64,000 nucleotides of DNA from contig JAACPJ010000003.1 in the NCBI GenBank assembly GCA_009995455.1, positions 124,001-188,000 on the forward strand, read 5' to 3'. The first letter of the stretch is position 1. Each line of letters begins with the position of its first letter. The notes beneath the pieces were generated by a model that did not search any database, was not told where the DNA came from, and saw nothing but the letters and a program-made list of their open reading frames with translations. A program made the translations under genes and the position numbers. Of this stretch, positions 49,319-51,874 are shown in pieces. This stretch comes from a bacterium. Its GTDB lineage: Bacteria; Patescibacteriota; Gracilibacteria; UBA4473.

Positions 49319-50080
49319 ATGAAAGAAGAAGGGTTAACCGATCGTAAGAGAATATGGGAAGTTGACCTTTTGCGGGCGTTAGCTGTTTTGGGAATGCTTT
49401 ATTTCCATTGGTTTTATTTGCTCGATTTCTGGAATTTAAAAAATACGGCTCTATTTGTTGATGGCTGGGAAATTTTTGGCAACACAATTCGAAACACTTT
49501 TTTTATGGTGGTGGGTGCGGGTTTAGTTTTGTCTTATCAGCACAGTCAATTAAAAGAACAGTCGTATTTAAGTTACGGAATTAGAACCATGAAAAAGGGT
49601 TTTATTCTTTTGGTCATAGGCGGTCTGATTACTTTTTGGAGCACTTTTTTTGCCCCTGACCAGGTGATTCGGTTTGGTGTTTTGTCATTTATTGGTACCG
49701 GTATGATTTTGCTGTGGCCCTTGGTGCCAAAATGGTACGCCTTAGCGGCGGTTACGGGTTTGTTGCTTTGGATAGAAAGTCAGTGGGGAGAAGTATGGAA
49801 CCAGGAATCATTATGGAGTTATATTTTGGGTTTTTATCCGCGTTATTGGCCGAGTTTAGATTACTTTCCCTTAGAACCTTGGTTGGCTTCAATTAGTGGT
49901 GGCGCTTTAATCGCCAGCCTAATATTTGAAAAGGCTGAGCGTCGTTACCCTTTTTTTAATCTGCCAAAATTTTTACAGCCCGTTATTTGGGTCGGGCAAA
50001 AAGCCCTGTGGATTTATTTGCTCCACATTCCGGTATTTGCCGCGCTCATTTGGGCGCTCGATAAAATTGGGGTTTACTAA
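49319..50080 (+). CDS. DUF1624/heparan-alpha-glucosaminide acetyltransferase-like membrane protein
   Basis: RKRIWEVDLLRALAVLGMLYFHWFYLLDFW; IWVGQKALWIYLLHIPVF. Confidence 0.8.
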   Translation: MKEEGLTDRKRIWEVDLLRALAVLGMLYFHWFYLLDFWNLKNTALFVDGWEIFGNTIRNTFFMVVGAGLVLSYQHSQLKEQSYLSYGIRTMKKGFILLVIGGLITFWSTFFAPDQVIRFGVLSFIGTGMILLWPLVPKWYALAAVTGLLLWIESQWGEVWNQESLWSYILGFYPRYWPSLDYFPLEPWLASISGGALIASLIFEKAERRYPFFNLPKFLQPVIWVGQKALWIYLLHIPVFAALIWALDKIGVY

Positions 50081-50081
50081 A

Positions 50082-51200
50082 TTATTTTGAATCGATTTTC
50101 ACTTTAGTGGCTTTAGAACCAGTGCTTTCACTCAGCCATTTTTCTTCTAGTTTTTTTATGAATCCGTTATCGCGTAATTCCATAATGTTTTTATCAATAC
50201 TACGAATAATACGCCAATCAACGCCATAACTAATAGCAATTCCATACAGTTCCTCTGAAAGCCGACCGGGCCGGATTGCCACTGAAATGCCGTCATCATG
50301 CGCCCGAGATTTAATATCTAAAAGCAGTGGCTGTTCACCAACAATGGCGTCAATTTCTCGGTTTTTAAGCGCTTCATATAATTCGTCTATACTGGCGGCA
50401 GCAAAGAGTTGTTTAAACTCATCCGCCCGTGGCGTCAGTCTAATATCGGCTGAACTTTCACTAATTAATCCCATGCGAACTTCAGAGTAATCGGTGTTTT
50501 CTTTAAACAACGCGTTTTCTTTTTTAAGGTCGTATCTTTCTATTACTTGGGCCGTTATAATACTCGAAAATAGCAGCGTTATTACCCAAAGCGGCCACAC
50601 TAAAATTCGAGAGGCGTGCCCCTGTACACTCCAGGGTTTTTTAAAGGCATGCCATAATCCATCCATAATTCCTGGCCAATAATGATGCTCTATTTCATCG
50701 TTATGACCCCTTTCTAGTAGCCAAAAAATGATTCCAAATATGACACAGAAAAACATGTATAAACCAATGGTTTGCAGCAAAATTGGGGAAAGCAGCGTAC
50801 TGAAATAAGTCAGTAAATTTATATCTTCGTCCCGGACTAAAACGTTAATTCCACTGAGTAAATAGGGCTGACTAAAAGCCATGTTTTCGCTCCGGCTGCT
50901 TCGAATGCTTACGGTGGCCAAGGCAAAATCTGCTTGGCGATTTCGCACCATATCGAGTACGTTTTGAAAACTCTCTTCTTCAACAAACGAGTAATTGAGT
51001 CCTATTCGTTCGGCGATTTCTTTCCACAATTCAACTTCAAACCCAACGTAGGTTTCGTCATCTACCTTTTCTACCATTCTTGGGAGCGGGCTTACCACCA
51101 CGGTATAATCCCGATTGGGTACGTCTTGCGCCTGCAGGGTTTGCGTATTTGAAAAGCCTAAAAACAAAGTCAGAAAGCCAAAAAATATATGTTTCATCAA
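50082..51200 (-). CDS. Ionotropic glutamate receptor-like channel (SBP half - TM - pore - TM - SBP half)
   Basis: S1 YVGFEVELWKEIAERIGL...ADFALATVSIRSSRSENMAFSQPYLLSG; TM LLQTIGLYMFFCVIFGIIFWLLERG; pore-like GLWHAFKKPWSVQG; TM LVWPLWVITLLFSSIITAQVI; S2 SIDELYEALKNREIDAIVGEQPLLLDI...LRDNGFIKKLEEKWL. Confidence 0.8.
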   Translation of the reverse strand: MMKHIFFGFLTLFLGFSNTQTLQAQDVPNRDYTVVVSPLPRMVEKVDDETYVGFEVELWKEIAERIGLNYSFVEEESFQNVLDMVRNRQADFALATVSIRSSRSENMAFSQPYLLSGINVLVRDEDINLLTYFSTLLSPILLQTIGLYMFFCVIFGIIFWLLERGHNDEIEHHYWPGIMDGLWHAFKKPWSVQGHASRILVWPLWVITLLFSSIITAQVIERYDLKKENALFKENTDYSEVRMGLISESSADIRLTPRADEFKQLFAAASIDELYEALKNREIDAIVGEQPLLLDIKSRAHDDGISVAIRPGRLSEELYGIAISYGVDWRIIRSIDKNIMELRDNGFIKKLEEKWLSESTGSKATKVKIDSK

Positions 51201-51265: not shown

Positions 51266-51874
51266 ATGCGATATATAGCGACTCTTTCAGTTTCGGTTTT
51301 TTCGGTTTTAGCTTTAACGGCTTGTAATTCGAGTGATGGAGAATCTTCACTAGAATCGGCTTTAAATTCTATCGAGCCGAGTGTTATTGGTGAAAATATC
51401 GTTAATAATGGAACTGTAGCGGTGGAGGCGAACGCGGAGACAAACACGGCAACGGTAAATACGGTGGCCAATACGCAAACCGAAGTTATGGGGGACAATA
51501 AAGTTATTGGGCAAGAAACGCCAGTAGGCGATAATCCAGTTATGAATCCAGCCGGAGAAACGATTTTTAAAACTTCTCAAGTGCTTTTCCCAAAAGGGGG
51601 CGAGCGAATTGAAGTCGGCAAAAGCTATTTAATTCGTTGGGAGAGTGAAGGCATTAAAGCCGTTGATTTAGAATTGCACGAGTTTGGACGCAAAAAATTT
51701 ACCATCGCTGAACGAGTTTTAGCCGCACCGGGTAATTATTCTTGGACCCCGAGCAGACCGCTTTTAGCGGGTGAAGAATATAAACAGTACACCGTGGTAA
51801 TGGTTGATAGTGACACAATGGTTGCGCATGGTAAAAGTGAAAACGCTTTTATGTTACTGCCAGCGTCTGAGTAG
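51266..51874 (+). CDS. Putative lipoprotein with C-terminal Ig-like domain
   Basis: Lipobox LALTAC; QVLFPKGGERIEVGKSYLIRWESEGIKAVDLEL. Confidence 0.65.
   Translation: MRYIATLSVSVFSVLALTACNSSDGESSLESALNSIEPSVIGENIVNNGTVAVEANAETNTATVNTVANTQTEVMGDNKVIGQETPVGDNPVMNPAGETIFKTSQVLFPKGGERIEVGKSYLIRWESEGIKAVDLELHEFGRKKFTIAERVLAAPGNYSWTPSRPLLAGEEYKQYTVVMVDSDTMVAHGKSENAFMLLPASE

Follow-up and report, generated by a model that had tools for sequence, protein, structure and literature searches.

The window analysed here is a stretch of 64,000 nucleotides, and the receptor gene occupies positions 50082–51197 on its minus strand, running from an ATG at 51197 to a TAA at 50082 and encoding a protein of 371 amino acids with the topology of ionotropic glutamate receptors (iGluRs). 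This ATG is the likelier start, and the listed TTG at 51200 is located one codon upstream. The reading frame of 371 codons is intact and has no internal TGA, and as TGA serves as a stop in 2 of 34 long ORFs in this region of the genome no alternative code has to be assumed for it; some genomes of the same class read TGA as glycine (code 25). The gene stands alone, with no operon partner visible at the locus. The convergent neighbour is a plus-strand gene for an HGSNAT-type acyltransferase (49319–50080), and the divergent neighbour is a small lipoprotein-like gene, also on the plus strand (51266–51874), whose product (51266–51871) matches a Kre9/KNH-like Ig domain. The GC content and codon usage of the receptor gene are ordinary among its neighbours in the window, which speaks against a contaminant or misassembled contig. 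The host genome consists of 1.32 Mb in 23 contigs and is 93% complete; its small size, together with the use of code 25 by members of its class, suggests that it belongs to the Patescibacteria, class Gracilibacteria.

The protein begins with a signal peptide predicted from sequence (residues 1–23, 51129–51197, minus strand as for all features below), with the cleavage site placed by eye after LQA, and continues into a binding domain that is split in two. The first half, S1, covers residues 30–125 (50823–51110) and the second half, S2, residues 240–357 (50127–50480), both delimited by Pfam matches and by alignment to 2pyy. The SBP_bac_3 match spans residues 45–356 and is interrupted midway by a long insertion (E = 5.4e-22), and Lig_chan-Glu_bd matches S1. 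A search of the PDB gives the bacterial iGluR homologue 2pyy as the top match (3.8e-18), followed by amino-acid binding proteins and then by NMDA and AMPA receptors. According to Ger et al. 2010 (PMC2950845), an Arg in S1 and an Asp in S2 contact the alpha-carboxyl and alpha-amino groups of glutamate. The original prediction had placed an Arg and an acidic residue at these positions, and the alignments agree: R102 (50892–50894), in the context SIRSSR, is aligned with the S1 Arg binding the ligand alpha-carboxylate and does not vary across alignments A1 and A2. E288 (50334–50336), in the context VGEQP, is aligned with the acidic residue binding the alpha-amino group, which in most relatives is Asp (VxDxP) and here is Glu; 2pyy is among the sequences aligned. 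The S1 landmarks, including G52 and R102, are kept. The position of the stacking aromatic residue, PPF in many binding proteins, reads PRM, and is variable among the relatives too. As far as sequence can tell, the ligand-binding clamp looks intact.

The SBP_bac_3 domain has the fold of ABC binding proteins, and weak matches to GlnH, ArgT and MltF are found, so the product might serve an amino-acid ABC transporter as its binding protein or belong to a lytic transglycosylase as its binding domain, the two protein types that the original prediction had named as pointing away from a receptor. The GlnH, ArgT and MltF scores are however far under the NCBIfam cut-offs (MltF reaches 32 bits where 354 are required), Pfam detects no transglycosylase (SLT) domain, and the binding domain is interrupted by two transmembrane (TM) segments. 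The receptor gene is also the sole PF00497 (SBP_bac_3) match in the host genome, and no ABC permease of the PF00528 (BPD_transp_1) superfamily is detected in the 93% complete assembly, the missing part of which (about 6.5%) could hold one; the same domain is matched in 14 of 14 control genomes. With a single SBP_bac_3 gene and no detectable permease of the matching superfamily, a role as ABC binding protein is very unlikely, and the explanation as a whole, transglycosylase included, can be given hardly any weight.

Between S1 and S2 there are two hydropathy peaks, at residues 143–161 and 198–216. The first is TM1 (residues 143–161, 50715–50771), which is followed by a linker and the start of a pore helix (residues 162–185, 50643–50714), beginning with ERGHN and including YWPGIMDGLWHAF. 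Residues 186–195 (50613–50642), KKPWSVQGHA, take the place of the filter and the post-filter leg, and the second TM helix comprises residues 196–219 (50541–50612). The pore-loop-like segment GLWHAFKKPWSVQG is located at 50660–50619, with the next TM at about 50612–50541. A profile of the TM region was built from 17 pore-bearing homologues (four from Patescibacteria, one from a cyanobacterium and 12 encoded by proteobacterial plasmids), leaving out the window protein, and compared with 2000 versions in which the inter-TM segment alone was shuffled. The window protein scores 32.7 bits and the best shuffle 22.1 (0 of 2000 as good), and with a profile of the pore only the scores are 20.1 and 10.5 bits respectively. 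In their sequence, TM1, the linker and the start of the pore helix thus resemble bacterial iGluR channels beyond chance. The alignment to the profile runs through TM1, ERGHNDE and YWPGIMDGLWHAF and ends at residue 185, where the filter should begin, and the spacing between the TM peaks is 55 residues compared to 61–70 in the 17 homologues, indicating that about seven residues are missing. The protein accordingly lacks a complete re-entrant loop carrying a filter.

TVGYGD, reported as missing in the original prediction, is indeed found neither in the reading frame nor in the two other frames of the loop, and a frameshift was rejected as the cause, as these two frames hold no filter-like sequence. 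Two Lys and one Pro occupy the position where the filter would start. The second TM has lost its resemblance to that of the homologues and cannot be recognised as M2/M3 of an iGluR, 413 of 3000 shuffles being as good as the real sequence. Searching the PDB with the TM region alone gave solely the photosystem protein CP43 with an E-value of about 0.1, which was taken as chance. AlphaFold gave models of unusably low quality, with a pLDDT of 44 for the protein by itself and of 42 when one binding protein was added, and Foldseek found no match at E ≤ 0.001 with the former. The GluR0 topology that had been proposed is recovered with a split SBP_bac_3 domain, two TM peaks and a matched pore-helix start, the pore segment being truncated. 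Among the Pfam domains suggested for checking, SBP_bac_3 is thus present, and Ion_trans_2 and Lig_chan have no match in the window protein, each being matched by six of the ten members of A2.

GluR0 (Synechocystis slr1257) and the "Group 1" prokaryotic iGluRs of Ger et al. 2010 have in common with the window protein a signal peptide, the order S1-TM-pore segment-TM-S2, the Arg of S1 and the acidic residue of S2, whereas the window protein differs by the lack of TVGYGD, the loop shortened by about seven residues, the unrecognisable second TM and the missing Ion_trans_2 match. Having neither a TVGYGD-type filter nor an Ion_trans_2 domain, it falls outside the K+-selective Group 1, and with the filter strand gone and two lysines at its entrance, K+-selective conduction appears very unlikely. 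Ger et al. 2010 describe 10 of 22 prokaryotic iGluR homologues as being without the K+ filter, named "Group 2" and regarded as putative channels (PMC2950845), and filterless iGluR-type genes are common on proteobacterial plasmids; the absence of the filter was correctly predicted, but is therefore not surprising by itself. The window protein resembles Group 2, as described there, in topology, ligand-contact positions and lack of the K+ filter. The filterless relatives compared here have however a full-length loop (TM spacing 62–70) and a recognisable second TM, and the window protein has neither. One plasmid gene of this filterless type (L061:1486–2538) has a transposase gene in its vicinity and belongs to a conjugative plasmid of Salmonella enterica (CP074271.1), with similar matches on other Salmonella plasmids.

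The gene is sporadic in its own lineage. It is present in one of three genomes of the genus and was not found in the other two, and a full-length relative is present in 2 of 20 genomes of the family. Apart from the window gene the only full-length relative in the family is L002 (genome G013), which is also the best full-length relative of the window protein (107 bits, 27% identity); the two have the pore-helix motif YWxGxxDGxW in common and differ in that L002 has a loop of full length with TVTTVGYGDKAP. A separate gene for a K+ channel with two TMs and TVGYGD (L002:129–572) is located less than 1 kb from this canonical receptor gene. Full-length or near-full relatives are found in 4 of 353 genomes of the class, the window's own included, and a spread of 380 genomes of the phylum adds three, L003, L004 and L005. 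The survey of related genomes for the filter sequence, as suggested at the outset, thus shows K+ filters in L002, L004 and L005 (GYGD in the latter two) and none in L003, which still has the full loop length. L003 (1423–2544, genome G104) encodes a full-length iGluR-type protein with TGIFGQEERHP instead of TVGYGD, resembling the filter region of a cyanobacterial protein from Kovacikia (LIGQDVTMP). Viral contigs scanned with the window protein, L047A, L002, L021, L025 and L005 contained no relatives, and none were found in phage records. The sole match in the genome-contig scan, L019 from Anaerolinea, is an ABC binding protein.

A sporadic gene like this one could encode a receptor that came in by horizontal transfer, is no longer functional and is drifting, and the end branch of the window protein in a tree of S1 and S2 is very long (5.9 changes per site), as expected for decay. 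The occurrence in one of three genomes of the genus and in 2 of 20 of the family is in line with this, but the gene family is sporadic everywhere, the frame of 371 codons is intact, G52, R102 and the other S1 landmarks are kept, and GC content and codon usage are typical of the neighbouring genes. Decay is for these reasons considered improbable.

Other members of the class have relatives of this protein with an equally short pore loop or with none. Genome G515 (code 25) contains two tandem genes on the minus strand (L047:1498–3523) encoding S1-TM-TM-S2 proteins, L047A with a shortened pore segment (TM spacing 51) and L047B with practically none (spacing 38), and a fragment in genome G514 (L048, code 25) has a spacing of 34. 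The pair might possibly form a heteromeric receptor without a pore. TGA codons in these genes fall on conserved glycines, present at three such positions in 19, 17 and 15 of the 19 comparators, indicating that reading them with code 25 is sound. All three have S1 and S2 of the same family as the window protein. Their pore segments are reduced, to a similar length in L047A and completely in L047B and L048. The loops in the class range from full, over shortened (the window protein and L047A), to absent (L047B and L048). In the tree based only on S1 and S2, L047A, L047B and L048 group together (99/97), and the window protein is not placed. AU tests rejected neither holding it with L047 and L048 (p = 0.17) nor holding it with L002 (p = 0.38), so that this tree is compatible with one as well as with several loop-shortening events.

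Two readings of the protein can be set against each other with this evidence. It could still be a ligand-gated channel, unselective or differently selective, with the shortened loop KKPWSVQGHA forming in a tetramer a constriction that would be wide or carry positive charge. The best argument for this is the start of the pore helix, conserved beyond chance, which a pure sensor would not need. Several filterless receptors also have Lys or Arg near the filter, and the QG in KKPWSVQGHA presumably recalls the filters of animal iGluRs. Group 2 receptors without a filter are, as noted above, regarded as putative channels (PMC2950845). The loop is however about seven residues short of every one of the 17 pore-bearing homologues, the second TM is not recognisable as a gating helix, eight Lys per tetramer would be expected to repel cations, and relatives in the same class have dispensed with the loop. 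Such a channel is therefore a real but lesser possibility. The reading preferred here, to which we give a near-even chance, is that the protein descends from the prokaryotic (GluR0-type) iGluR lineage as a derived form with a degenerated pore, and that it works chiefly as a sensor or ligand-binding receptor anchored in the membrane. It is preferred over the unselective channel mainly because the same-class relatives with a short or absent loop have kept S1 and S2, and with them the clamp. Counted against the sensor are, besides the pore-helix start, the lack of a cytoplasmic output domain or a visible operon partner, and the long branch, which leaves a common origin with the loop-less relatives unsupported by the tree. 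Of the two outcomes originally offered, altered selectivity or a non-conducting sensor, altered selectivity is the less likely, given the missing loop residues and the lost similarity of the second TM, and lost or unselective conduction the likelier.

If the sensor reading is right, the clamp formed by R102 and E288 would close on an amino-acid-like ligand and pull on both membrane helices as in iGluRs. With the filter gone the movement of the helices would no longer gate a K+ current, and the protein might instead pass the motion on to some partner. The window protein would then probably be an amino-acid-type sensor without K+ conduction, and the loop-less relatives hint at receptors of this kind in the class.

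The absence of the K+ filter alone is known from Group 2 (PMC2950845); the novelty lies in pore loops that, in this class of bacteria, are shortened or missing. The full-text literature, as far as covered, contains nothing on iGluRs in combination with the candidate phyla radiation, and one unrelated paper in combination with Gracilibacteria. It is tentatively suggested that this patescibacterial class holds receptors of the iGluR lineage that lose the pore loop stepwise and keep the clamp, being non-conducting, 'metabotropic' and signalling by helix movement alone. If true, these proteins would amount to experiments of nature that retain the architecture of glutamate receptors and the ligand clamp but not the filter or the whole pore loop, and would test whether coupling of the ligand-binding domain to the helices is useful without ion flow. 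They would also bring a further lineage into the discussion of which came first, receptors with a K+ filter or filterless ones, and genes of the type 'SBP + 2 TM' in reduced genomes should then not be given the label of ABC binding protein or K+ channel by default.
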